Of a stretch of DNA of 41,900 nucleotides, positions 7,832 through 41,793 are shown piece by piece; the stretch's first letter is position 1, and each line of letters opens with the position of its first letter. The stretch comes from Acidobacteriota bacterium (lineage in GTDB: Bacteria; Acidobacteriota; Blastocatellia; UBA7656): positions 52,757 through 94,656 of the forward strand of contig JBBPIG010000026.1 of the NCBI GenBank assembly GCA_038040445.1, given 5' to 3'. The notes under the pieces were generated by a model that searched no databases, had not been told where the DNA came from, and was given only the letters and a program-made list of their open reading frames with translations. Both the position numbers and the translations under genes were made by a program.

Positions 7832-9367
<1,536 letters not shown>

Positions 9368-9387: not shown

Positions 9388-9456
9388 GGTTCAGAGTTCA
9401 AGCTTTAGCTTGCCCCCCCACGAACGGCAGGCAACCTAAAGGTTGAACTCCGAACC
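9388..9456. repeat. Imperfect inverted repeat, second repeat family
   Basis: Arms at 9388-9414 and 9430-9456 are reverse complements at 24 of 27 positions, with a 15-nt loop. Each arm carries a GTTC-GAGTTCAA core followed by a short CTTTAG. It lies in the 99-nt gap between two minus-strand genes, 20 nt upstream of the amidohydrolase start. It does not share sequence with the GGGAGCGCAGGC family. Confidence 0.85.
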
Positions 9457-9466
9457 GGCATTCGGA

Positions 9467-10378
9467 CTATTTGCTGACCGCGACTCTGGCATAGATCGCA
9501 CTGCCGAGCCGAACGAAAGGTCCGCCGTTCTCCGACAGCTCTTCTGTAACGGTGAATGAGTGCGCGGCGACGATCGAGATGACTCGCTTCAAAAGGAGCG
9601 TCTGTCCTTTCACCTTGATGGGATCGACGGTGAAGCGGATCGAGATTGGGCTGCGCCAGTCGGCCTTACTTTGAATCTGAATGCCGTTGGCGATGCGCTC
9701 GGAGAAAGTCATCATCTTGGTTCCGTCATCGAAAGTGATCACGGCGGTTTCAGCGAAAGCCTTGCCGTCAGCTTTTCCTTCGGTGCGCGCATCGAGAGAC
9801 TTACCATCAGGCAGAAGTGTGAACGTAGTCGTTCCTTCCCTGGGCGCGGGCCCTAGCGCGCTCTCACGGCCGATCCAGTTGAAGCTCCATTGCCCGACAA
9901 AGTAACTGATTGACTGTTTTTGCTGCGGCTGGGGTACCTCTCGCCTGGGCTGCGCCGGAGGAGGCTGCGATTGCTGCTGCCCCGGGGGCGCGTCACCACC
10001 TCGTTTCATGTCGAAATCGAAACCGTAGGTCTGCCCGCCGAACTCGGCTTCGCCCTTTCCCTTCATCGTGTCGCCCTGCACAACGAAGTCGTAGGTGATG
10101 GCCACATTGCCCTGCGGCGTCTCTATTTCAGTCCTGGCGGTCACCTTTTCGCCTTCCAGCTTGATGTCCTTGAGAGAAGCATCCATGCCTGGCCGCAAGC
10201 CTGTGATGGTACCGGTGTACTTCTCGCCTTCCTTTTTGAAAGTGGCCACAGCCGCTTGCCTCCCTTGTAGCCCTTCGACGGTGCCGACCCAACGGCCCTC
10301 CAGCCGGACGGGTGACTGGCCCGGCGTCGCGAAACATTGAGTCAAAATCATCGCTACAACAACGAGTGCTCTACGCAT
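9467..10378 (-). CDS. Secreted hypothetical protein with two beta-rich domains
   Basis: A 303-residue protein not assigned to a named gene. A signal peptide covers about residues 1-21 (ending ATPGQ). The first domain (about 25-125) is beta-rich, with GRWVGTVEG and repeated charged strands, like small lipocalin-type modules. A Gln/Pro-rich linker follows, then a second domain beginning ISYFVGQWSFNW that resembles DUF1579-type lipocalin-like proteins (moderate confidence). The frame continues upstream into a repeat, where the encoded residues are clearly repeat-derived. ATG at 10378 is chosen because GGAGG stands 9 nt before it; the ATG at 10387 would touch that site. Same strand as the heme-copper genes upstream. 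Confidence 0.75.
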   Translation of the reverse strand: MRRALVVVAMILTQCFATPGQSPVRLEGRWVGTVEGLQGRQAAVATFKKEGEKYTGTITGLRPGMDASLKDIKLEGEKVTARTEIETPQGNVAITYDFVVQGDTMKGKGEAEFGGQTYGFDFDMKRGGDAPPGQQQSQPPPAQPRREVPQPQQKQSISYFVGQWSFNWIGRESALGPAPREGTTTFTLLPDGKSLDARTEGKADGKAFAETAVITFDDGTKMMTFSERIANGIQIQSKADWRSPISIRFTVDPIKVKGQTLLLKRVISIVAAHSFTVTEELSENGGPFVRLGSAIYARVAVSK

Positions 10379-10410
10379 TAACTCCATCCTCCGAGTATAA
10401 AATGAGATTC

Positions 10411-10505
10411 CTGGGAGCGCAGGCATCCTGCCTGCCTTTGATCCCGTTAACCAATTGTTTTCTTTTCGAGCAACGCCATGCAGGCAAGGATGCCTGCGCT
10501 CCCAA
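10411..10505. repeat. REP-like inverted repeat, copy 2
   Basis: Left arm 10413-10435 (23 nt) and right arm 10480-10503 (24 nt) are reverse complements apart from one missing base on the left. The loop is 44 nt. The right arm is identical to the solo half-copy at 30859-30882. Confidence 0.9.
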
Positions 10506-10514
10506 GTACAGAAA

Positions 10515-10544
10515 CGGGCGGCCCTCCCGCACGGAGACCGCCCG
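10515..10544 (-). terminator. Hairpin after the first heme-copper gene
   Basis: CGGGCGG (10515-10521) pairs with CCGCCCG (10538-10544), with an inner CTCC/GGAG pairing. It begins about 28 nt past the stop of the minus-strand gene at 10573. Only three T residues follow on that strand, so termination is probable rather than certain. Confidence 0.55.
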
Positions 10545-10572
10545 CTATGTTCTCGAACGTCGCCACCCGATC

Positions 10573-11841
<1,269 letters not shown>

Positions 11842-24562: not shown

Positions 24563-24598
24563 CCTGGGAGCGCAGGCATCCCTGCCTGCGCTCCCAGG
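24563..24598. repeat. REP-like element, copy 3, perfect palindrome
   Basis: CCTGGGAGCGCAGGC (24563-24577), a 6-nt loop, then its perfect 15-nt reverse complement (24584-24598). It fills most of the 68-nt gap between the pump gene and the PepSY-like gene. As RNA it would be a very stable hairpin inside the operon, able to lower PepSY expression relative to the pump. It ends 4 nt before the pump stop codon. Confidence 0.92.
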
Positions 24599-24602
24599 CT
24601 CA

Positions 24603-27600
24603 TCAATCGCTCTTTTCGACATGTGCCTTTCGCCGAGCGCCGTAGCGAAGGTAGAGCGCCGGCATCAAAAACAAATTCAGCAGCGTCGAGGTCACCAGGC
24701 CCCCCAGTATGACTACCGCCATCGGGTGCTCAATCTCGTGACCCGGGCGGTTTCCGCCAACGACGATCGGCAAAAGCGCAAGTCCCGTAGCGAGCGCGGT
24801 CATCAGGATCGGAGCGAGCCGCTCCTCCGAGCCGCGCATGACAAGCTCTCTGCCGAACGTCTCACCCTCTTCAAATTCAAGGTGCCGATAATGGCTTACC
24901 AGCATGATGCCGTTGCGCGCAGCTATCCCGAGCACGGTCACAAACCCGACAAGCGAACCCAAAGAAAGCACTCCGCCGGTGAGCAGCGTCGCAATCACGC
25001 CTCCGACTAAAGCAAAAGGAAGGCTCACAAACACGAGCCCAACCAAACGGGGCGAGCGAAAGTCGGCGTGCAGCAGCAGGAGTATACCGAGAAGCGAAAG
25101 ACCCGAAAGAGCCAGGAGCCGGTTCCTCGATTCCTGCCGGGCAGCATATTCGCCGAGGAACTCAGGATGATACTCGCGGTCAAAAGAGAGAGCTTTGACC
25201 TTGGCCTCGATCTCGCGCGCGACGCTTCCCAGGTCGCGCCCTTTCACGTCGCAACTCACATCTATGCGCCGTGAAGCGCCCTCGCGCTGGATAACATTCG
25301 GGGACGGCGCAATGCGGATCTCGGCTACCTCGTCCAGCGGCACATCCCCGCCCGACGGCAGATTGATCCTCATCTGGCGCAGCGCCTCAATGTTGCCCCT
25401 TACCTGAGCGGCGCCCCATACGACGACATCGAAGATCTTCTGCTCCTCGTAGACCTCGCCCACCTTGGTGCTCTTAACCAGGGTGGTTGCCGCCCGCCGA
25501 ACATCGCCCGGCGTTAAACCGGATCGAAGCGCCGCGTCAGGACGCAATCTGATCTCGAGTTGCGGCACAAGGACCTGGGGCTCGACTTTCAAATTGGTGA
25601 CGCCTTGAATCTCGCTCATGGTCCTACCGACTTCGGCTGCTTTTTCGCGCAGTACTCCCAGTCCAGGCCCGTAGATGCGCACGACAATCGTCGCCCCCGC
25701 CCCGGTCAGCACCTCTTTGATCCGTTCCTTCAGATAAGTAAGCACGTCACGTTGAAGACCAGGATAGCCTTCGACTACTCCTTGAATCCGCGCGACCGTC
25801 GGCTCGTATGGCGAATCGGGGTCGATGCTTATCCAGAGCTCGGCGAAGTTCGGGCCGACCACTTCGTCGGCAACCTCTGCGCGCCCAATGTGCGAGCCGA
25901 AATTCCTCACTCCGGGAATGGCCCGAAGCTCTTTGCTCACCTGAACGGTGATCCGCTGCATGGCTTCGAGCGAGGTCCCTGGCTTTCCGACCCAGTGCAT
26001 CAGAAAGTCGGTCTCTTTGAAGTCGGGCAGGAACTCTTCGCCAAGAAAAGGGACCGTCACTGCCGTGAGACCGAAGACGACCACCAGCACCACCGCAGCC
26101 CATCGCGGTCGGCCCACCATACGCGGCAGAAAGCTTTTGTAATACCGCTTAAGCAGGCGGGCGACCGGCGGGTCTTTGTGATCGGCCTTTGCAGCGCGGG
26201 GCAGCAGCAACAAAGAGAGCGCGGGAGTCAATGTGAGCGCTATGGCCAAAGAGGCCATCACAGCCAGGACATATGAAACCGCAAGCGGGCGGAAAAACGA
26301 CCCTGCCAGTCCATCCAGAAAGAAGACCGGGAGGAACACGAGTACCACAATCAAAGTTGCGTAAACAATTGCGCTCCTAACTTCGATTGAGGCCTTCAGC
26401 ACAACCTGAAAAGCAGTCTCCGGATTCACGGCTGAGCGGTTGAGCCGCAATCGACGCATGATGTTCTCGACATCTATGATCGCGTCGTCAACCACTTCGC
26501 CCAGCGCGATGACCAGACCTGCTATGACCATGGTGTTGATCGTGTAGCCCCGGTAGTGCAGGATCAGCGTTGCCGCGAGCAACGACAGCGGGATCGCCGT
26601 CAGGCTGATGAGAGCAGTTCGCCAGTCGTACAGGAACGCTACGAGAACTATCACCACCAGCACGCAGCCGATCATCAGCGCGCGGTTCAAATTCTTAAGC
26701 GCCAACTCGATGAAGGTCGCGGGTCGAAAGATCGTCGAGTCCACCTCGACATCCTTTAAGCCCGGTCTGAGCGCATCCAACGCACTCTCGACGTTGCGGG
26801 TGACATCGAGCGTGTTACCCTGCGGCTGCTTCTCAACTATCAACAGCAATCCCGGCCCGTCGTTGATGACCGCATCGCCAATCGGCGCAGGAAAGCCTTC
26901 GACAACAGTGGCCACGTTGCCTAGCTGAAGCGGCGACCCGTCGCGGAAGGCCACTGGAATTCTCGCGAGATCCTCCGCGCGAACGACCGCCGAGAGGTGG
27001 GTGATGGAAAAGCGTTGGTTGGGCGTGTCAATGAATCCGCCGGCGCCCGGAGAAACAGCATCGCGCGTCGTTCGCACCACATCATCGAGCGTCACGTTGT
27101 GGGCGCGCAGATTGTCTGGGTCAACCAGCACCTGAATCTGCCGGTCTCGCTGGCCCCAGATCGCCACATTGGCCACACCAGGTATCGCCATCAGTCGAGG
27201 TCGAATCGTCCATCGCGCAAGCGTCGTAAGCTCCATCTGCGACAGCGACGCCGACGACATGCCAATCTTCATCACGCGGCTGGTTGATGAAAGCGGCGAG
27301 AGAATCACTGGCGGGCGCGCGACCGCCGGCAGTTGCGCGGCGACGATTGAGAGGCGCTCCTGGACAAGCTGCCGGGCGCGCATCAGGTCCGTGCCTTCCT
27401 GAAAAATGAGAACAACGGATGAGAGCCCAAGCACGGATTTCGAGCGTAACGTCTTTAGCGACATTATGCCGTTCAGCGAGTTTTCAATCGGCGCGGAGAC
27501 GAGGCTTTCAACTTCGGCGGTGGACAGACCCGGCGCTTCTGTTTGTATCTCGACTACGGGAGGCGCAAATTCCGGGAACACATCCAGAGGCGTTGTGCGC

Positions 27601-27692
27601 ACTATCTGTATCCCGACAATCATCAAGACAACAGCAAGAGCTACGACAACGATGCGCAGGTGAAGCGAAGTAGATACGATCCAGTTCATCAT
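24603..27692 (-). CDS. RND efflux pump, CzcA/CusA-like
   Basis: Inner-membrane proton-driven pump of 1029 residues, normal for the family. The N-terminal membrane helix (12-31) leads into a periplasmic porter region; further helices begin at about 338, and the intramembrane motif [13 protein letters not shown] (398-410) carries acidic residues (Asp402, Asp403, Asp407, Glu409) at the place where CzcA has Asp402/Asp408/Glu415 for proton transfer. This fits the heavy-metal RND branch, but the metal cannot be read off. Adaptor and outer-membrane channel genes lie upstream. The start (27692 or 27689) has no ribosome binding site: the heptamer array ends 8 nt before it. A palindrome follows the stop. 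Confidence 0.9.
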
Positions 27693-27699
27693 AAAAAAC

Positions 27700-27974
27700 G
27701 GTTCAGGGTTCAGGGTTCGTGGTTCAGGGTTCAGGGTTCAGGGTTCAGGGTTCAGGGTTCAGGGTTCAGGGTTTCGATTTGATGGTTGCTGTTCTCCGGT
27801 TCTATTGAGTCTCGTAACCACAAACCAGAAACCCTGAACCCTGAACCACGAACCACGAACCACGAACCACGAACCCTGAACCACGAACCCTGAACCACGA
27901 ACCCTGAACCCTGAACCCTGAACCCTGAACCACGAACCCTGAACCCTGAACCCTGAACCCGGAACCCCGAACCG
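27700..27974. repeat. Composite heptamer-array element A
   Basis: Left arm 27700-27776 is 11 tandem heptamers, mostly GGTTCAG. A unique core follows (about 27777-27820). The right arm 27821-27974 is 22 heptamers in the opposite sense (TGAACCC, with CGAACCA/CGAACCC variants). The arms can fold back on each other into a long hairpin. The core shares TGATGGTTGCTGTT and GAGTCTCGTAACCACAAACC with element B at 30710-30856, in reverse orientation. The element occupies 275 of the 286 nt between adaptor stop and pump start. Confidence 0.93.
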
Positions 27975-27978
27975 GGGT

Positions 27979-29208
27979 TCATTTGCCCCCGCTGAACTCC
28001 GTGCTGAACAGCTCCGCCGCGCCAGCTACAACGACCTTGGTTCCCGCTGCTGGGCCGTGAGCCAGGACTGCCAACGAGCCTGTGACATAGCGCACCTCGA
28101 CGCGCCGGCGCACGTACTGTTGCGGCGCGATGTTTTCATAAACCCATTCTCCGCCGTGAACATCACGTATGACCGCCGAATACGGTACGGCCAGACTTTG
28201 TTCTGCGCCCACCAGCGTCAGAGTAACGCCGACTCTCTGACCCGGGCGATAGGGGCCAAGCGACGACAGCTTGTAGTAAAGATCAATCGTCGAGGCATTC
28301 GGGTTAGCGGTGGGAGGCGCGGCGATTGGCCTTGCCGAAAGTATCGGCGAGCCCGGCGAGTCGCCAAGATTATGGATCTTCGCTGCCTGTCGCCGGTCGA
28401 TGGACCCGAGGTCTCCGACATAGACCGGAACGCGAACCCAGATTGAAGCCAGGCTTGCTATCTCAAACAACGGCGCTGAGCTCGCGACCTTCTGGCCCGT
28501 GCCCGCGTGCACCTTTTGAATCATCCCGTCTTCCGGTGCGATAACCGGAATCGAGATGTCCGCATCCATCGGTGTGCGGATTACGCGTGCCAGCTTTTCT
28601 CGCGCCGCCTTGAGTGCGTGTTCGGCGAGCGCGAGATCCTCTCGCGCCTGTTCAACCTGCTTGACGCTTCCTGCTTTATCGCGCAGGAGTTGCTCGGCGC
28701 GATCGAGCTTTACTTTTGCGGCATCGACCCGAGTTTGGGCATCGGTCAGTTCTTTCTCGGCCTGCGAACGCGCATCGCGCTCAGGTGGAAGCATCGGTAA
28801 CAAACGAAACACTGCCATGCCCTTCTGCACCGTCATACCGGCGTCAGGCGCGGCGCCCAAAGCTCCGGCGAGGATGGTGCCTGCGACCGGAGCCGACACG
28901 ATTCGGGTACTGTCAGGAGGCAGCACCACCTCACCGCCAAAGGTGCGCTCTCGTGTTGCGCTGGTGACTTCAACCGGCGCGGTGCTAATCCCCAATCGAG
29001 CTTCGGCTTCGGCGGTGAGCGTAACCGTAGCCAGATCGCCCTCTTTGACGGCGTTTTCAACCTTCGCTGGAGTCGCGGGCTTCTGAGCTTCGGCGGCCTT
29101 CTGTGTGGTGCAGCCTGCCGCGCTCATCAATATGACGAGGCCGGCAACTCGCAGGTCAAAGCGAACTCCACTGAAGTAAAGTGAGAGTGCGCCGTCGGAG
29201 ATTTTCAA
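27979..29208 (-). CDS. RND periplasmic adaptor lipoprotein
   Basis: A 409-residue membrane-fusion protein that joins the pump to the outer-membrane channel. A lipobox SAAGC places the lipidated Cys at residue 33. A coiled-coil hairpin covers about 148-208 (long Lys/Glu/Ala/Arg-rich helices), flanked by lipoyl-like halves (VSAPVAGTIL, IPVIAPEDGMIQKVHAG) and followed by beta-barrel and membrane-proximal domains. This is the CusB/CzcB layout; no Met-rich or His-rich metal-binding extension is evident. ATG 29208 overlaps the TolC-type gene's stop in an ATGA, so the two are translationally coupled. Composite element A begins 5 nt after its stop. Confidence 0.9.
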   Translation of the reverse strand: MKISDGALSLYFSGVRFDLRVAGLVILMSAAGCTTQKAAEAQKPATPAKVENAVKEGDLATVTLTAEAEARLGISTAPVEVTSATRERTFGGEVVLPPDSTRIVSAPVAGTILAGALGAAPDAGMTVQKGMAVFRLLPMLPPERDARSQAEKELTDAQTRVDAAKVKLDRAEQLLRDKAGSVKQVEQAREDLALAEHALKAAREKLARVIRTPMDADISIPVIAPEDGMIQKVHAGTGQKVASSAPLFEIASLASIWVRVPVYVGDLGSIDRRQAAKIHNLGDSPGSPILSARPIAAPPTANPNASTIDLYYKLSSLGPYRPGQRVGVTLTLVGAEQSLAVPYSAVIRDVHGGEWVYENIAPQQYVRRRVEVRYVTGSLAVLAHGPAAGTKVVVAGAAELFSTEFSGGK

Positions 29209-30587
29209 TTGGTTTTCCTTCCTACGGCCCTCTGTAACTGGGCCGTTGCGCGCTGAATGGCGGCGCTCGCTTCTGCCTCTTGCAAGCGGGCGTCGTAAAG
29301 CCGGCGTGACGTTTCAAGGACGAAGAGATAGGCCACGTCCCCAGCAGCATAAGCTTTTTCTGATATGCGAATGTCTTCTTCGATTACCGGCAAGATCCGG
29401 CCGCGCCACGAGTCGAGTGCCTGCCGCGCTGCTTGAAGCTGGGTATAGGCTTCTTGCACTTCGAGGGCAATCCGGTCGCGCACGGCTACGTATTGGCGCG
29501 CCGCGCGCTCGATCTCAGCCTCAGCCCGCGTGATCCCACCCTTGTTGCGGTTGAGGAACGGAAGCTCAACCTGCACGCCGGGTCCGGCTTCGAAGCCCTT
29601 CGACCCTTTAGCATTGGCATCGAGAATCGCCGATATGGAAAAAATCTTCGAGCGTTCCCATTTCGCGCGCTTGCCCGCGGCTTCAATGGCGAGCTCCGCG
29701 GCCCGCAAGTCCGGACGCGCGGCAAGCGCCTGCTTTATCAGGTCGTTCACCTCTTGATCGTTGCGTTGCCGAGTTGAAGAAGCCGGGCCCGCGGCGATTA
29801 CGCTCGGATTTCCGCCGGCCGGTGACGTGGAAGGTTGCGTGGAAGCAACAATGTCGAACGAGGCGTCGCCGGCCACCATGCCGAGCAGAAAACGGAGCCT
29901 GTCTTTTGCAATCTTCGCCTCGTTGCTTGATCGCGCCGCCTGTTCCTCGGCTTGTCTTGCGTCGAGACCAGCACTGCTGGTTTCGAGCTCGCTTATGTCC
30001 CCGGCGCGAAGCCTGGCCTGGACGATCTGAGCAATCTCAGTTCGCTGACGATGCGAGTCGGCTGCGATGCGCGTTCGATCATTTGCGAGGGCCGAATCAG
30101 CATAGGCGACTCTTACATCGCGCACCAGGTTGAGCCCTGTCTGAACGAGGCTTTCGGCTACGCGCTCGACCTCGACTTTCGCGGCGGCGACCCGGCGCGG
30201 TCTTTGCCAGAAAACCTCGAGCGGCAGGTTTGCGGTGAACTCGAGCTGCTTGGGCCCCCACGGCAGCAACAGCGTCAACATCGGATTGCGCAGTTGACCT
30301 GCTTCGACCAGATCCGCGCGCGCGAACCCAAGAGAGGTCAGGTCGGCTTGAAAGGCCGCGTTGTTCCACAGGGCGACGGCAACCGCCTCATCCTCCGAAA
30401 GTCCGTCGGCGAGTATTACTCCCGGTGGAACCGCGAATGCCGAAGACTGAGAGTTTGGATTCAAGCCGTGTCCGGTTCGATCTTCAATCCCTTTCGACAC
30501 CTGGGTTGTGACTTTTGAAGATCGGCTGGAGCAACCGGCAAGAACAAGAATCAGGAAGGCCGATGTTACAACGATAAGCTTCGTCAA
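29205..30587 (-). CDS. TolC-type outer-membrane channel lipoprotein
   Basis: A 460-residue outer-membrane factor, CzcC-like, forming the exit duct of the efflux complex. The lipobox LAGC gives lipid-modified Cys19. Two long helical OEP repeats follow (about 70-255 and 280-455) with high Ala, Glu, Arg and Gln, as in TolC coiled coils. The start codon is TTG at 30587; AAGGGGA lies about 7 nt upstream and no better ATG exists in frame. It is the first gene of the efflux operon (channel, adaptor, pump), and a promoter-like motif shared with the regulator-phosphatase gap lies 73 nt upstream. Confidence 0.9.
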   Translation of the reverse strand: MTKLIVVTSAFLILVLAGCSSRSSKVTTQVSKGIEDRTGHGLNPNSQSSAFAVPPGVILADGLSEDEAVAVALWNNAAFQADLTSLGFARADLVEAGQLRNPMLTLLLPWGPKQLEFTANLPLEVFWQRPRRVAAAKVEVERVAESLVQTGLNLVRDVRVAYADSALANDRTRIAADSHRQRTEIAQIVQARLRAGDISELETSSAGLDARQAEEQAARSSNEAKIAKDRLRFLLGMVAGDASFDIVASTQPSTSPAGGNPSVIAAGPASSTRQRNDQEVNDLIKQALAARPDLRAAELAIEAAGKRAKWERSKIFSISAILDANAKGSKGFEAGPGVQVELPFLNRNKGGITRAEAEIERAARQYVAVRDRIALEVQEAYTQLQAARQALDSWRGRILPVIEEDIRISEKAYAAGDVAYLFVLETSRRLYDARLQEAEASAAIQRATAQLQRAVGRKTN

Positions 30588-30659
30588 ATTAGGGTCCCCT
30601 TACCCTGCGCGCGAATTGAGGGTTGTTCTGTGGTCCACGTGAAAGCCGTCAGGGAAACG

Positions 30660-30693
30660 ATTCTATTGATCCGAAGATGAACAGAAGATTAAT
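30660..30693 (-). promoter_or_regulatory. Predicted regulated promoter of the efflux operon
   Basis: On the minus strand this 34-nt site reads ATTAAT, then TTCTGTTCATC, then a -10-like TAGAAT (30660-30665). It matches the site at 33088-33121 at 26 of 34 positions with no gaps, including 17 of the first 18. The -35 region is poor, as expected for an activator-dependent promoter. The start would be near 30653, 65 nt before the channel gene. Confidence 0.6.
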
Positions 30694-30709
30694 TGCAGCC
30701 AAAGCTGGA

Positions 30710-30856
30710 GGTTCCTGGTTCCTGGTTCCTGGTTTCTGGTTTCTGGTTTCTGGTTTGTGGTTACGAGACTCGACAGAAACCAGACAACAGCAACCATCAA
30801 TCGAAAACCCGAAACCCGAAACCCCGAATGATAAACCCGGAACCACGAACCCCGAA
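30710..30856. repeat. Composite heptamer-array element B
   Basis: Left arm 30710-30758 is seven heptamers (GGTTCCT x3, GGTTTCT x3, GGTTTGT). A core (about 30759-30801) is followed by degenerate opposite-sense heptamers (CCCGAAA, CCACGAA and similar) to 30856. In reverse orientation the core matches element A, including the exact 20-mer GAGTCTCGTAACCACAAACC, although the heptamer sequences differ between the two copies. It lies 17 nt upstream of the predicted efflux promoter. Confidence 0.88.
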
Positions 30857-30858
30857 GA

Positions 30859-30885
30859 GCAGGCAAGGATGCCTGCGCTCCCAGG
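30859..30885. repeat. REP-like solo half-element, copy 4
   Basis: A single 24-nt arm (30859-30882) identical to the right arm of copy 2 at 10480-10503. No partner arm is found. It directly abuts element B and lies 14 nt beyond the stop codon of the sensor kinase gene. Confidence 0.85.
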
Positions 30886-30899
30886 CTGGCGCTCCGAGG

Positions 30900-32291
30900 C
30901 TATCTCGGCAACGACACGGTGAACTTGCTGCCGTGGCCGGGGCGGCTGGTCAAATCGATGGACCCCTTATGCGCCTCCGCAACCCATCTTGCAATGGCAA
31001 GGCCGAGTCCGCTTCCGCCATCTACACGCGAACGCGCCTTATCAACACGATAGAATCTCTCAAAAATGTGTGGAGCCGAATCGGCAGGAATGCCTATTCC
31101 GGTATCCGAAACGATGATCTTTACATTTGCCGCTTCAACGCCGAGCCTGACTGAAATAGAGCCGCCCGAGGGAGTGTACTTGATGGCGTTGTCGAGCAGG
31201 TTCAGAAGCATCCGCCTCACCAAGACTTCATCACCACGAAAAGCGATGTCCGGTGTGGGATCGAACGTCAAGGATACCCCATCGCGCACAGCCAAAACAC
31301 TTGCAGATTTGCAGCATTCTTCTACCAGGTCATTCAAATAGAACTCTTCGATCTCCAACGGTCGTTCTTCAGCGTCTGCGCGAGCCAGCGCCAGCAAGTC
31401 GTCAACTATGCGCGATAGCCTCTTTGACTCGTCTTGAACAATCGCCAACGCCTCTTTGTACTCGATCGCATCCCTGTCCTGGGATAGTGCGACATCGGCT
31501 TCGCCTCTTATTATCGACAGCGGCGTGCGAAGCTCGTGAGAGGCGTCGGCGATAAACTCGCGCATGCTCTCGAACGAACGGTCGAGTCTTGCAAGCAAAT
31601 CGTTGAACACGCGCGCCAGATGCCCAAGCTCGTCGCTCTTATTACCGACGCTCAAACGTTCGTGTAGATTTCTGGCGCTGATGCGCTCGGCTTGATTGGA
31701 CATTGCCACGACCGGGGCGAGGCTCTTTTTCGCGAGTAAGAATCCGCCGATTCCCGCCACGAGTAAGCTTGCGGGAAAGGCGAGGTAAAAGATTCGCCTG
31801 ATCGATTCAAGCTGCTCGACCAGGTCATGCAACGGTTCGGCTGTCACCACAAGATAGTCCTTGCCCCTCGCGCGCGCGGAGATCGCGGCTACTCGTGCGC
31901 CCTCTTCGCCGAAGCCTTGAACGGTCCGAAACGTGGGATGGCCGCCCGTCGCCGCGGGAGACAAAAGGTCCTTCGGAAGAGCGATCTGCTGATCTCCGTC
32001 AAAGCTCGACGCGAGGAGCTGCTCGCCATCAAATATCGCGACATAGATCCCCGGCAGACGGAGTTCAGTCAAAGCCTGCGCGGCGCCCGAGGAGGCGCCT
32101 TCTTCACTCTCCGCCTCCTCGCTGCGAAACTCGCCGGCGACTGCCTGCGCGGCACGCAACAGCGATTGGTCGAGCCGTTCATACAGGGTTTGAGATAACA
32201 CCAGGTAGACGTATGCGCTGAAGCACAGAAGCAGCAATCCGAAGAGCAGCACATACCACAATGTCAGACGAACTCGGACGCTCTTAACCAT
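30900..32291 (-). CDS. Sensor histidine kinase
   Basis: A 463-residue membrane kinase of the CusS/EnvZ type. Membrane segments at about 9-33 and 168-188 enclose a periplasmic sensor of about 130 residues. A HAMP domain (about 188-240) leads to the H-box ADASHELRTP with phospho-acceptor His252, the N-box with Asn368, DTGIG (396-400), FERFYR and GSGLG (426-430). All catalytic boxes are intact. The periplasmic part is not rich in His or Met, so the signal is unclear. ATG 32291 has GGAGAG before it and overlaps the regulator gene by 8 nt. It presumably phosphorylates that regulator and controls the efflux genes downstream. Confidence 0.92.
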   Translation of the reverse strand: MVKSVRVRLTLWYVLLFGLLLLCFSAYVYLVLSQTLYERLDQSLLRAAQAVAGEFRSEEAESEEGASSGAAQALTELRLPGIYVAIFDGEQLLASSFDGDQQIALPKDLLSPAATGGHPTFRTVQGFGEEGARVAAISARARGKDYLVVTAEPLHDLVEQLESIRRIFYLAFPASLLVAGIGGFLLAKKSLAPVVAMSNQAERISARNLHERLSVGNKSDELGHLARVFNDLLARLDRSFESMREFIADASHELRTPLSIIRGEADVALSQDRDAIEYKEALAIVQDESKRLSRIVDDLLALARADAEERPLEIEEFYLNDLVEECCKSASVLAVRDGVSLTFDPTPDIAFRGDEVLVRRMLLNLLDNAIKYTPSGGSISVRLGVEAANVKIIVSDTGIGIPADSAPHIFERFYRVDKARSRVDGGSGLGLAIARWVAEAHKGSIDLTSRPGHGSKFTVSLPR

Positions 32292-32973
32292 TTTCGCTCT
32301 CCAGATCGGGCGAGAAGAAATAACCCTCACCGCGCCGGGTGTGGATCAGCGGCTTGCTGAAACCCTCGTCTATTTTTTTTCGAAGCCGCCCAACGTACAC
32401 ATCGATGACATTCGAAAACGCATCGAAGTTCTCGTCCCATACGTGGCCTGCTATCTCGGCCCGCCCGACCAGCTTGCCCACTCTAAGCACAAAAAACTCC
32501 AACAATGAGTATTCCTTCGCGGTCAGGCTTATCGCGCGCCCGGCGCGAGTCACTGTGTGACTTGCGGTGTTGACTGTCAGGTCGGCGACTTGAAGAGTCT
32601 CCGGTCTAATCTCCTGCGCTCTTCTGAGAAGCGCGCGAATTCGCGCCAGGAGTTCCTTAAAATCAAACGGCTTGCTCAAGTAGTCATCTGCTCCGCAATC
32701 CAGACCTGTCACGCGATCGTCAATCGCATCGCGGGCGGTCAAAATCAGCACAGGCCGTTTGTTACCTTGAGCGCGCAATTCTTTGCAAACCTGGAAGCCA
32801 TCCTTAAGCGGAAGCATTACGTCGAGGATGATCAAATCGTATTCGGTGATGCTCGCCTTATACAGCGCCTCCTCGCCGTCGCCGGCAATGTCGACGGCAT
32901 AGCCCTGCTCACGCGCGCCCTTCGCAATAAAGCGCGCCACTCGCGGCTCATCCTCTACAAGTAATAGTCTCAC
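32284..32973 (-). CDS. OmpR-family response regulator
   Basis: A 229-residue transcription factor. The receiver domain has the acidic pair Glu7-Asp8, phospho-acceptor Asp51, Thr79 and Lys101; a winged-helix DNA-binding domain (about 130-225) ends with TRRGEGYFF. The start is GTG at 32973, giving the standard MRLLLVEDE beginning; a longer frame to 33057 adds a Ser-rich stretch unlike any regulator. The ribosome binding site is weak (GGAT). It overlaps the sensor kinase gene, forming a two-component system. The shared promoter motif at 33088-33121 lies 115 nt upstream and could also serve autoregulation. Confidence 0.92.
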   Translation of the reverse strand: MRLLLVEDEPRVARFIAKGAREQGYAVDIAGDGEEALYKASITEYDLIILDVMLPLKDGFQVCKELRAQGNKRPVLILTARDAIDDRVTGLDCGADDYLSKPFDFKELLARIRALLRRAQEIRPETLQVADLTVNTASHTVTRAGRAISLTAKEYSLLEFFVLRVGKLVGRAEIAGHVWDENFDAFSNVIDVYVGRLRKKIDEGFSKPLIHTRRGEGYFFSPDLESENG

Positions 32974-39567: not shown

Positions 39568-41793
39568 ATGCGGTTCAAGATTCATCTGTTTCTCCCTCTG
39601 TTCATTGCCGCGGTACTGATTGCGCCAATCATTTCAACGACTCGCGCCGCCGGGCAAGCCCCGCAAGCACCCGCGCAGCCGTTCGAGCCGTTCGTCAATC
39701 GGATTCGTGACGGACTCAAGCTGAACGAAGAACAAGTCACAGAGCTGAGAAAGGTCCTGGTCAAGCACGCGCCGAAGCTGCTCGATCTTCGCAACCGCGC
39801 GCAGGCGAACCCTTATGCGCCGGGGCTTCAAACCGAAATTGATAAGGAACAGAAGGCGATCCGGGAAGAGCTCACCACACTCCTCGACGAAGATCAAAAA
39901 GGTAAGCTTGCAAGCTTCGACACGCGACTGCCGGTGCCGATGGGGCCACCTTTCGTCTTGATCAACGTCCTTCCGCGCGTCCGTATAGAGGCGGGGACAA
40001 TCAAGCTCGCAAGCACCGAACGACTGATCTCGACTCCCAGCCCAACGGCGAAGGGTCGCTCCGCTCGATTGACTGAAGACCAGAAGCTGCTTCACCTGCT
40101 CAATCGCATCACATTCGGTCCGCTCCCCGGAGACGTCGCTCGAGTTAAGCAAGCCGGCATCGAGCGATTTATCGAACAGCAGTTGCACCCCGAGACGATT
40201 GACGATTCCGACCTCGAGAAACGATTGGAGGTGTTGCCGACCCAGCGAATGACGTCGGCTGAGCTTTATCAGTTCTATCCGCCTCCACAGGTGGCGGAGC
40301 AGCGCGCGAACGACAAGAACGCGCCGCCGATCTTTGGCCGCCCGCAACAGGTCATCGGCGAGCTTGTTCAGCAAAAGCTCGTGCGCGCCGTGTCCAGCAA
40401 CCGGCAGTTGCAAGAGGTGCTGACGGATTTCTGGTTCAACCACTTCAACGTATTCGCTCAGAAGGAAGCCGATCAATGGTTCGTAACCAGCTACGAGCGC
40501 GAGGTGATTCGCCCGCGCGCGCTCGGCAAGTTCCGCGACTTGTTGCTTGCGACTGCCGAGAGCCCGGCGATGTTGTACTACCTGGACAATTGGCTGTCGG
40601 CTTCGCCTGATTCCAAACAGCCGCGACCGCCCCGGCCTCAAAACGGGCAGCCGCCAAGACCCGCTCCTGCGGCCAATCCCAAGCCACCTGAAGCCGGGGG
40701 GCCCGCGCCCGATCAGAACACCTCGATGATCGCCAAGAAAGAAAGCGATCCTCAATCCTCAATCCTCAATCCCCAATCGCCTCCTCCTCCCAGACCAGCC
40801 CCACGCAAGCCAGGCATAAACGAGAACTACGCTCGCGAGCTGATGGAGCTACACACGCTGGGCGTCGATGGCGGCTACACGCAGAAGGACGTGCAAGAGG
40901 TCGCGCGTTGCTTCACGGGCTGGACCATCGATCGTCCGTTTCAGGGCGGCGGCTTCGTGTTCCGCCCGTGGATGCACGATGACGGCGCAAAGACCGTGCT
41001 GGGCGTCACGATGCCGGCAGGCGGCGGGATCGCGGACGGCCGCCGAGTGATCGACATTCTATCGAGGCATCCTTCAACGGCACGCTTCATCTCGAAAAGA
41101 CTCTGCCAGCGATTTGTTTCCGACGATCCACCCGCGCAACTGGTCGAACGCGTCTCGCAAGTGTTTCAGAAAACCGACGGCGACATCCGCGAAGTCATTC
41201 GCGCAATCTTGACCTCGCCGGAATTCAACTCGACGGTTGCGTTTCGCGCCAAGATCAAGTCGCCGCTCGAACTGGCCGCGTCTGCAATTCGCGCTCTGGA
41301 CGGGGACACCAACGGCGCTCCCGCGCTGCACGATTGGATTCGCAGAATGGGCGAGCCCCTTTATCAGTTCGCATTCCCGACCGGCTACGGCGAGACCTCG
41401 GCGAAATGGGTAAACACCGGTGTGTTCTTCAACAGGATCAACTACGCGGTGGCGCTGGCGAGCAATCAGATCAACGGAACGAACTATGATCCGCTTCGGC
41501 TTGTTTCGACTGAGGCCGTTGGGAATTTGAATGAGCTGACCAATCAATTGTCTGCGCTGATCGTTCACACAGAGTTGTCGCCGGAAAGCTTGGGCGCAGT
41601 TCGCGCGGGCCTGGCCGAGCAGGGTTCGCCGGTTACTGCGGCAAGTGCCGCGCGTCCGGCGATGAACGCCGGAGAGAGAGCCGAGATGCTTCCAGTGAAA
41701 GCGGCTTCCACGTCCGATGCCAACACTGAGCGCCGCCGGATAGCTCAAGTGATCGGCTTGCTGATGGGCGCCTCGGAGTTTCAAAGACGGTGA
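39568..41793 (+). CDS. Secreted DUF1800-family protein
   Basis: A 741-residue exported protein of unknown function. Signal peptide to about residue 29, a helical region (36-120) with Glu/Lys-rich segments, then the DUF1800 domain (about 170-740) with LLNRITFGP, FWFNHFNVF, NENYARELMELHTLGVDGGY, and RFISKRLCQRFV. DUF1800 genes are usually followed by a DUF1501 gene; only 107 nt remain in the window, so this cannot be tested. A Pro-rich linker of about 65 residues (about 347-412) interrupts the domain between DNWLS and GINENY; part of it is encoded by a heptamer array. AAAGGAG stands 10 nt before ATG 39568. Confidence 0.88.
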   Translation: MRFKIHLFLPLFIAAVLIAPIISTTRAAGQAPQAPAQPFEPFVNRIRDGLKLNEEQVTELRKVLVKHAPKLLDLRNRAQANPYAPGLQTEIDKEQKAIREELTTLLDEDQKGKLASFDTRLPVPMGPPFVLINVLPRVRIEAGTIKLASTERLISTPSPTAKGRSARLTEDQKLLHLLNRITFGPLPGDVARVKQAGIERFIEQQLHPETIDDSDLEKRLEVLPTQRMTSAELYQFYPPPQVAEQRANDKNAPPIFGRPQQVIGELVQQKLVRAVSSNRQLQEVLTDFWFNHFNVFAQKEADQWFVTSYEREVIRPRALGKFRDLLLATAESPAMLYYLDNWLSASPDSKQPRPPRPQNGQPPRPAPAANPKPPEAGGPAPDQNTSMIAKKESDPQSSILNPQSPPPPRPAPRKPGINENYARELMELHTLGVDGGYTQKDVQEVARCFTGWTIDRPFQGGGFVFRPWMHDDGAKTVLGVTMPAGGGIADGRRVIDILSRHPSTARFISKRLCQRFVSDDPPAQLVERVSQVFQKTDGDIREVIRAILTSPEFNSTVAFRAKIKSPLELAASAIRALDGDTNGAPALHDWIRRMGEPLYQFAFPTGYGETSAKWVNTGVFFNRINYAVALASNQINGTNYDPLRLVSTEAVGNLNELTNQLSALIVHTELSPESLGAVRAGLAEQGSPVTAASAARPAMNAGERAEMLPVKAASTSDANTERRRIAQVIGLLMGASEFQRR
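40750..40777 (+). repeat. Heptamer array inside the DUF1800 gene
   Basis: Four tandem heptamers, CCTCAAT three times and CCCCAAT once, within the coding sequence. Since 7 is not a multiple of 3, each copy is read in a different frame; together they encode the linker residues PQSSILNPQS. Confidence 0.9.

Follow-up and report, generated by a model that had tools for sequence, protein, structure and literature searches.

The window studied here, a stretch of 41,900 nt from an Acidobacteriota bacterium (GCA_038040445.1, contig JBBPIG010000026.1, forward-strand positions 52,757–94,656; positions below are those of the window), contains two elements, A and B, in which arrays of seven-base repeats face each other in opposite orientation across a common core. 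We consider it close to an even call that A and B are members of a genome-wide class of heptad hairpins, i.e., intergenic palindromes that carry their G-richer arm first and lie just past stop codons. Throughout the source genome such palindromes share a period of 7 nt, an arm polarity and a position while being built from many unrelated heptamers. Element A opens with a G-rich first arm of 10.6 GGTTCAG units (27700–27773, plus strand), followed by the core (27774–27826, plus strand) and a C-rich second arm of about 23 CTGAACC and ACGAACC units (27816–27974, minus strand). The first arm of B consists of GGTTCCT and then GGTTTCT heptamers, 7.6 units in all (30710–30762, plus strand), its core is inverted relative to that of A (30752–30809, minus strand), and its second arm is made of AACC units that are more degenerate than those of A (30805–30856, minus strand). 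Both cores contain the 20-mer GAGTCTCGTAACCACAAACC exactly (27807, plus strand; 30752, minus strand) and likewise the 14-mer TGATGGTTGCTGTT (27780, plus strand; 30786, minus strand), and the alignment of A with B spans the entire core and runs into both arms in inverted orientation. In the window 164 non-overlapping inverted 20-mer pairs were counted, mostly derived from the arms, and none of 300 first-order Markov resamples contained any. The coordinates and the plan of opposed heptamer arrays around a common inverted core agree with a sequence-only reading made beforehand; that reading had also described a core of about 55 bp between the arrays, which is indeed common to A and B, but its left half is itself heptad-phased (GGTTGCT GTTGTCT GGTTTCT), so that the non-heptad part amounts to about 11–14 bp, with the motif GAGTCTCGTAACCA at 27807–27820 in A and at 30771–30758 on the minus strand in B.

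The class was delimited with a detector that is blind to sequence and that selects inverted arms with a score of at least 14 and a lag-7 identity of at least 0.6, which also has to be the best among lags 3–12. The sample of the source genome, 775 kb, yielded 129 palindromes, 66 of which show a clear period, and in 61 of these 66 the period is at lag 7. Palindromes numbered 2 in one Markov resample of equal size and 6 in 200 kb of Escherichia coli K-12, with none at lag 7 in either. All but one of the 61 period-7 palindromes are intergenic. They represent 24 canonical heptamers, many of them unrelated (GGTTCAG, GAGGATC, GTGATGC, GATTGCC, AATTGAG and others), and 29 of the 61 have no GGTT in the first arm. 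On contig C1 by itself 22 were counted over 380 kb; at this density the genome would hold about 390, and heptad hairpins probably number hundreds in the source genome. The ten genomes examined contain 175 palindromes, 78 of them with a period of 7 nt; none of the 78 comes from G002, G003, G004, G007, or G053, of which 17–40 kb were inspected each. The 5′ arm contains more G than C in 72 of these 78 (3 with more C, 3 tied), in 55 of the 61 from the source genome (again 3 and 3), and in 36 of the 42 built on heptamers other than GGTT types (3 and 3; p = 4e-8 if the elements were independent, which copies are not). Read by eye, the 24 heptamers of the source genome are G-first in 18 cases, C-first in 3 and tied in 3, with several of them mutually related. 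As a palindrome reads alike from either strand, the G-first polarity is a real property of the elements. Regarding placement, 40 of the 61 elements stand between co-directional genes, 9 between convergent and 4 between divergent ones, and 8 at an edge; the 40 co-directional elements of all types start a median of 6 nt after the stop codon and lie a median of 28.5 nt before the next start. The 29 non-GGTT elements behave similarly (20 co-directional, with a median of 5 nt after the stop, 6 convergent, 0 divergent and 3 at an edge).

For the GGTT/AACC type, to which A and B belong, the same sample contains 31 two-arm clusters, 28 of them from contigs chosen partly for holding copies and 3 from the 380 kb of C1, which was chosen regardless of copies. 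Every one of the 31 is intergenic and has GGTT before AACC; 12 further clusters have one arm, and 2 of these are genic. Over the whole source genome, overlapping pattern matches occur 59 times in the order GGTT to AACC and once in the reverse order, and in viral contigs a stricter pattern matched 19 stretches compared with 0 for the reverse order. Where both neighbors were called, 22 of 26 GGTT elements lie between co-directional genes (expected 14.2 by spacer length and 17.5 by spacer number), and these 22 start a median of 6 nt after the stop and end a median of 23 nt before the next start. The distribution of this type among genomes is patchy. Opposed GGTT patterns match in 15 of 58 genomes, the source included, with at least 24 matches only in the source, G001, G002, G009, and G027 and 1–4 in each of the other ten. 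At phylum level the stricter pattern matches in 11 of 297 genomes including the source, with at least 13 matches in four (source, G009, G168, and G275), and its reversed control in 7 of 297. Among the 58 genomes the reversed control, CCAANNNCCAA...TTGGNNNTTGG, gave 35 matches in G053, 9 in G008 (both of family f3) and 0–2 elsewhere; it is not a pure null because this pattern is a heptad palindrome too, built on a different unit, and its frequency in G053 and G008 suggests heptad palindromes of such a unit there, with no period-7 palindrome in the 17 kb of G053 that were inspected.

The core has been dispersed to unlinked sites. A full-length match by blastn is confined to A and B, and the core is matched only in part and less strongly at C30:56682 and C3:370839. 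The motif CAGTCTCGTAACCA with at most one mismatch occurs 13 times in the genome (7 + 6; reversed control 1), so that the element is not the two-copy unit of the sequence-only reading. Each of the 13 copies sits inside opposed arrays of at least two units, seven of them on contig C12, and their neighbors are unrelated: efflux genes, ADOP-type permeases (one gene tested with TIGR03434, the others assigned by mutual similarity), ispG, and cofD with npdG. The sites of these further copies do not form a single duplicated region. The presence of ADOP permeases points to an acidobacterium. The common part of the 13-copy alignment is (C/G)AGTCTCGTAACCA, with two sub-types. ADOP proteins encoded beside core copies are mostly about 37–53% identical to their paralogs over at least 450 residues; in the motif, by contrast, no more than one base is changed, this being the limit of the search. 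A larger duplication is rejected for A and B because their flanks are unrelated (adaptor and pump genes for A, kinase and channel genes for B); it stays possible for some C12 copies between ADOP paralogs. The inverted bracketing of the channel and adaptor genes by A and B, earlier taken as meaningful, loses that meaning since A and B are merely two among many post-stop elements. Outside the source genome, the pattern AGTCTCGTAACCANNAAYCNGAAA (motif plus right flank) matched no contig of GTDB, a search which decayed copies would escape and in which the source or very near records may be absent. Ten relatives gave 8 one-mismatch motif matches in 5 genomes, all 8 inspected and none within arrays; the adaptor protein gave 129 pattern stretches in GTDB contigs with 0 confirmed by tblastn, and a plasmid search gave no match. 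Two further repeats were observed in the source genome. A second core, unrelated to that of A and B, forms an inverted pair at C26:41160 and C26:42676 (L093 1160 and 2676), 1.5 kb apart and outside the window, and on C12 inverted repeats of the TAGTCCCGCCTTCAGGCGGAA type are nested in or adjoin heptamer arrays (e.g., L083 12912–13051, L085 6682, L090 18012).

An amplified family with another core is found in G009, a genome of 8.4 Mb from another family of the class, with 153 GGTT-pattern matches. Its 23-bp core, TTCGAAAGTATTGATTTCTAACC, occurs in 186 copies with at most three mismatches (98 + 88; control 0 + 0); 61 of the 186 are exact, and some stand head to tail at steps of 44–59 bp. Both arms are present in 30 of the 33 distinct copies inspected, with 0–14 and 0–10 units per arm and left-arm units such as GGTTCTT, GGTTAGT, and GGTTCCT among others; the core is exact in 32 of these 33, most of which were fetched for being exact. 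By appearance, loci L146–L175 are a recently amplified element family. The claim that the core is inherited and the arms variable holds in G009, where the 23 bp of the core are retained and the arms vary in both unit and copy number, but it finds no support as a generalization. The four GGTT elements inspected in the sister species G001, two of them directly after ADOP-like stops, have GGTTCAG-type arms like those of the source genome but other loops, and G005 differs in heptamer as well as in core. There, an ADOP gene with 73% DNA identity to a source ADOP gene flanked by two elements is itself flanked by palindromes built from different heptamers, with GGTTACA/GGTGACA to one side and a GTGGGAGT-like repeat to the other.

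In G007, which belongs to the taxonomic order of the source organism but not to its family, the genes are still arranged as regulator, kinase, channel, adaptor, pump, at 40–73% protein identity, and the 10-kb stretch contains no heptamer array of at least three units. Its spacer at site A, between adaptor and pump, measures 28 nt compared with 286 nt here; thus A was either gained here or lost in G007. An array-free orthologous site, of the kind which the sequence-only reading had proposed to look for in relatives, is therefore on record, though at about 55% protein identity it is too distant for a target-site duplication to be read. ADOP-like stops were listed by motif, and the spacer following them was called periodic when the lag-7 identity was at least 0.45 and the best of lags 5–9. 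Periodic spacers follow 24 of 38 such stops in the source genome (16 of them GGTT/AACC), 4 of 8 in G001 and 3 of 12 in G005, compared with 0 of 6 in G002, 0 of 6 in G003 and 0 of 10 in G004; spacers of at most 31 nt follow 2 of 6 stops in G002 and 4 of 10 in G004. The units found after ADOP-like stops include GAGGATC, GATTGCC, GATTTTG, and AGGCAGT besides GGTTCAG.

On average, the arms of an element also match their own partner better than those of other elements, as judged by a length-controlled duplex test on 28 elements with arms of at least 42 nt, in which own arms pair better than swapped ones. Own pairing over the outer 42 nt is stronger than expected by 6.4 kcal/mol (z = −3.9, 0 of 20000 permutations); over the inner 42 nt z is −3.7 (5 of 20000), and −3.5 (5 of 20000) without an element that holds a nested perfect repeat. 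Local alignment of arms against their own partners in 28 elements gave p = 0.0026, and one element, L059, has irregular units that mirror each other over some 100 bp. Templating of one arm on the other would produce such a match, and so would selection for pairing.

To explain these properties we propose the following process as part of the reading that we consider close to an even call. Arms would gain and lose length in 7-nt steps through replication slippage. Fold-back (template-switch) synthesis on a G-rich nascent strand would make one arm a copy of the other and would account for both the partial mirroring of the arms and the G-first polarity. Loops with their inner arms would occasionally be copied elsewhere, either by recombination between shared heptamer arrays or by some transposition route, giving rise to core families such as the 13 copies here and the 186 in G009. 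Survival just past stop codons would reflect that insertion is tolerated there, and the RNA hairpin may in addition stabilize the upstream message or insulate the next gene. A bolder reading, which we put well short of an even expectation, is that heptad hairpins form one class, independent of sequence, and that one and the same mutational process makes them all, advancing by 7 nt at a time under a strand rule by which the G-rich strand comes first, is folded back and is copied. Any 7-nt word could then seed an element; the excess of heptamers in bacteria, the Xanthomonas arrays and the Nostoc P6b hairpin discussed below would all be products of this process, and lineage-specific cores would be loops fixed at founding and spread later. 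Several points weigh against the main proposal. Fold-back synthesis, like slippage and loop copying, is inferred from its presumed products. Palindromes without the 7-nt period also favor G first, if more weakly (68 with more G, 22 with more C and 7 tied, n = 97), and the polarity may therefore have another cause. The own-arm advantage is an average only, the own partner being the best in 2–3 of 28 elements with a median rank of 8–9, and arm length confounds the duplex test with full arms (z = −5.7 for 34 elements, of which three were hand-picked). Copying between sites is needed because slippage and fold-back alone do not give the 61 exact copies of the G009 23-mer. No clear 7-nt period follows 14 of the 38 ADOP-like stops in the source genome, and the co-directional enrichment of the GGTT elements is weak per spacer (22 of 26, p = 0.09; by spacer length p = 0.002). 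Finally, the genes were called by a procedure of our own, and half of the sample was selected in part because copies were present in it.

A conventional non-autonomous mobile element, resembling a miniature inverted-repeat transposable element (MITE) or a repetitive extragenic palindromic (REP) sequence, would have the core as recognition site of a transposase, with units inserting into spacers and arms drifting by slippage. We regard this as an unlikely explanation, albeit one with a serious claim. The 13 core-motif copies at unlinked sites, all within opposed arms, the 186 core copies of G009 with their 61 exact and head-to-tail members, the array-free orthologous site in G007 and the constant order of the arms all speak for it, and the dispersal suggests that the elements are mobile, with no enzyme linked to them. 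One element family, however, does not explain many unrelated heptamers with a common architecture. All 11 genomes examined for genes of the Y1 or REP-associated tyrosine transposase (RAYT) type carry them, among them three in which opposed GGTT arrays numbered 0. All 7 PF01797 matches of the source genome were inspected with their flanks (one at a contig end) and have no array of even two units in the stretch inspected; among the 7 loci inspected of the 9 PF01797 matches in G009, one (L210) has an array of at least three units, more than 1 kb away, and none has the G009 core; and the 3 loci inspected of the 14 matches in G013 and G027 have no arrays. Because these genes also occur in genomes without GGTT-pattern matches and, at the loci inspected in the source genome, G009, G013, and G027, none is flanked by arrays or core apart from a distant array in G009, neither the REP route nor a link to RAYT/Y1 transposases finds support. 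By eye, the consensus of the 13-copy core alignment has no REP tag (GTAG/CTAC or CGTC/GACG), with GACG present in single copies only, and the terminal inverted repeats of a MITE are likewise missing, as the outer ends are heptamers that vary between copies and the conserved part is central.

Rather improbable, in our judgment, is a selected intercistronic RNA hairpin that guards the 3′ end of the upstream mRNA and sets the expression of the next cistron, with its sequence free and its structure kept. A role of this kind has been proposed for the REP elements of E. coli operons. The placement right after stops and shortly before the next start (medians of 6 and 23 nt, or 6 and 28.5 nt) would suit such a role, as would the predicted folds of 13 elements on both strands, which range from −47 to −183 kcal/mol, and the spacer before the 73%-identical ADOP gene of G005, which holds a palindrome of another heptamer. 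Set against this, relatives lack elements at comparable places (the ADOP-like stops of G002, G003, and G004 and the 28-nt site A of G007), tolerance can account for the placement, and the core gives no covariation support: with 6 copies 28 pairs are predicted, one of which shows a double change, with a positive covariation term and hence weak support, and with 13 copies 4 pairs are predicted and 0 show a double change, giving no support for selection on the core. An intercistronic RNA-hairpin role of the elements is possible as an addition to the proposed process. Very improbable is the addition of G-rich repeats by a telomerase-like enzyme or a reverse transcriptase to both 3′ ends of a break that is then joined. 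Head-to-head telomere fusions consist of a G-rich arm, a junction and a C-rich arm, and the polarity found here fits this exactly, being G-rich and then C-rich on either strand; the better match, on average, of arms to their own partners and the mirrored irregular units of L059 point instead to one arm copied from the other, and conserved cores at many sites would be left unexplained. Least credible of all is the pairing of ordinary microsatellites by chance or a core likeness from a larger duplication, for although heptamer arrays are common in bacteria according to the available parts of two papers (PMC4692102, PMC4679880) and some C12 copies between paralogous ADOP genes could have been duplicated with the gene, chance and composition are rejected by the Markov resamples (no inverted 20-mer pair in 300) and the E. 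coli control, the order counts stand at 59 to 1, ADOP paralogs have diverged far more than the motif beside them, and for A and B the unrelated flanks together with the control counts refute both versions.

In the window, the two elements are part of an efflux gene cluster on the minus strand, in which the order is response regulator, kinase, B, channel, adaptor, A, pump. The sensor histidine kinase gene (30900–32330) is upstream of B, the gene of the outer-membrane efflux channel (29205–30587) lies between A and B, the stop codon of the HlyD-type adaptor gene (27979–29208) adjoins the outer end of A, and the start codon of the AcrB-type RND pump gene (24603–27692) is 7 bp past A, which occupies the 286-nt adaptor–pump spacer almost entirely. 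On the coding strand (27675–27700) A ends in CTGAACC-G-TTTTTT-ATG, where six T immediately precede the ATG with which the pump gene starts; no sequence resembling a Shine–Dalgarno motif was spotted before this ATG, and the spacer of G007 has GGAG. The elements do not have the short GC stem, small loop and T-run of an intrinsic terminator, with at least five T within 15 nt outside the arm in 2 of the 31 elements, A included; terminator-like matches between 27600 and 30950 number 5 compared with 4.6 in shuffles (loops of 3–8 only), one of the flagged stems lying at the second arm of B. Over the same interval no Rfam family reached its gathering score, and three matches to microRNA families far below the cut-offs reflect the long hairpin only. 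A third, weaker palindrome with a plan like that of A and B, GGTTCAGAGTTC...GAACTCCGAACC, lies at 9388–9456 between the minus-strand open reading frames (ORFs) 9467–10576 and 7832–9367, and with a lag-7 identity of 0.42 it falls under the cut-off of the class. A one-armed run of ATCCTCA heptamers was observed at 40745–40778 within ORF 39568–41793, with a unit that resembles that of the GAGGAT palindromes elsewhere in the genome. A second dispersed palindrome family, of the TGGGAGCGCAGGCATCC type and non-heptad, occurs at 1037–1115, 10412–10504, 24563–24598, and about 30862–30890, where it abuts the outer end of B, and a similar copy is present in an ADOP spacer on C12.

Seven-base repeats in intergenic DNA have been recognized before. 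Cyanobacterial short tandemly repeated repetitive (STRR) sequences are tandem repeats of this length, direct in orientation and located in intergenic DNA. In Beggiatoaceae, TAACTGA repeats are likewise seven-base tandem units in intergenic DNA, but as far as the available part of that report goes they are direct repeats, with one inverted case among 170 sets in a genome of the Beggiatoa group, and lie mostly upstream of start codons (PMC4679880). REP palindromes, with GTAG/CGTC tags, resemble the elements in being dispersed, often downstream of coding regions and plausibly transcribed, and differ, according to the sections consulted, in their length of 20–40 bp, a terminal tetranucleotide tag and GTAG-flanked RAYT genes (PMC3733652), whereas the elements here have long 7-nt-periodic arms with no consistent tag or transposase link. 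The BrickBuilt MITE of Porphyromonas gingivalis, present in 19 copies, is also intergenic and dispersed and combines a tandem repeat with inverted-repeat ends; its 23-nt tandem repeats stand between small inverted ends in the description accessible to us (PMC4596501), while here the arms themselves are the opposed repeats. In a 2026 survey of 118,019 genomes perfect inverted repeats were enriched after stop codons in bacteria, and the terms "heptamer" and "Acidobacteri" are absent from its main text (PMC13155455).

The nearest precedent is provided by the convergent GGGAATC pairs of Xanthomonas campestris and Xanthomonas citri, whose arrays are intergenic and include 70 and 75 close convergent pairs able to form stem-loops, with an average distance of 28 nt to the upstream ORF compared with 160 nt downstream (Rehm et al., PMC4692102). 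The GGTT elements are convergent pairs of this type, 31 of 31 being intergenic and in one order, with a median of 6 nt after the stop for the 22 co-directional ones; both systems thus have intergenic convergent heptamers near the upstream ORF, and the G-rich arm comes first in Xanthomonas too if "convergent" is meant in its usual sense. The Xanthomonas arrays differ, in so far as the accessible text describes them, in that each genome has one heptamer type, which is discussed in terms of G-quadruplexes, and that neither a conserved core nor a mixture of unrelated heptamers is described (PMC4692102). Many heptamers here have no GGG run, unlike GGGAATC: tracts of at least three G are present in GGGTTCA units and absent from GGTTTCT, GATTGCC, and AATTGAG units. 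A heptad hairpin is also known from P6b of the Nostoc tRNA-Leu(UAA) group I intron, where length varies by repeat copy number and by non-heptad inserts (PMC3488679, from the part available); it is a single locus inside an intron, in contrast to a dispersed intergenic class of which A and B lie between efflux genes. The view that no core-plus-opposed-arms unit was known is too strong in light of these two precedents (PMC4692102, PMC3488679, as far as the accessible text of each goes). The openly accessible literature yielded no paper on such elements in this bacterial group, and unrelated heptamers under one architecture, the G-first polarity and lineage-specific cores were not seen described in the literature found. 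The 7-nt bias of bacterial tandem repeats has been noted and is unsettled, an earlier survey having suggested contact with the DNA polymerase, as cited in the accessible portions of PMC4692102 and PMC4679880. If heptamer arrays are often the arms of polarized post-stop hairpins whatever their sequence, unit length becomes a testable question of process, for which lag 7, inverted arms and G first are a cheap signature for finding such elements in any genome and G009 and the source genome are named as carriers of amplified heptad-hairpin families. Many unrelated seven-base words under one structure open a way to ask why bacteria favor seven-base repeats.

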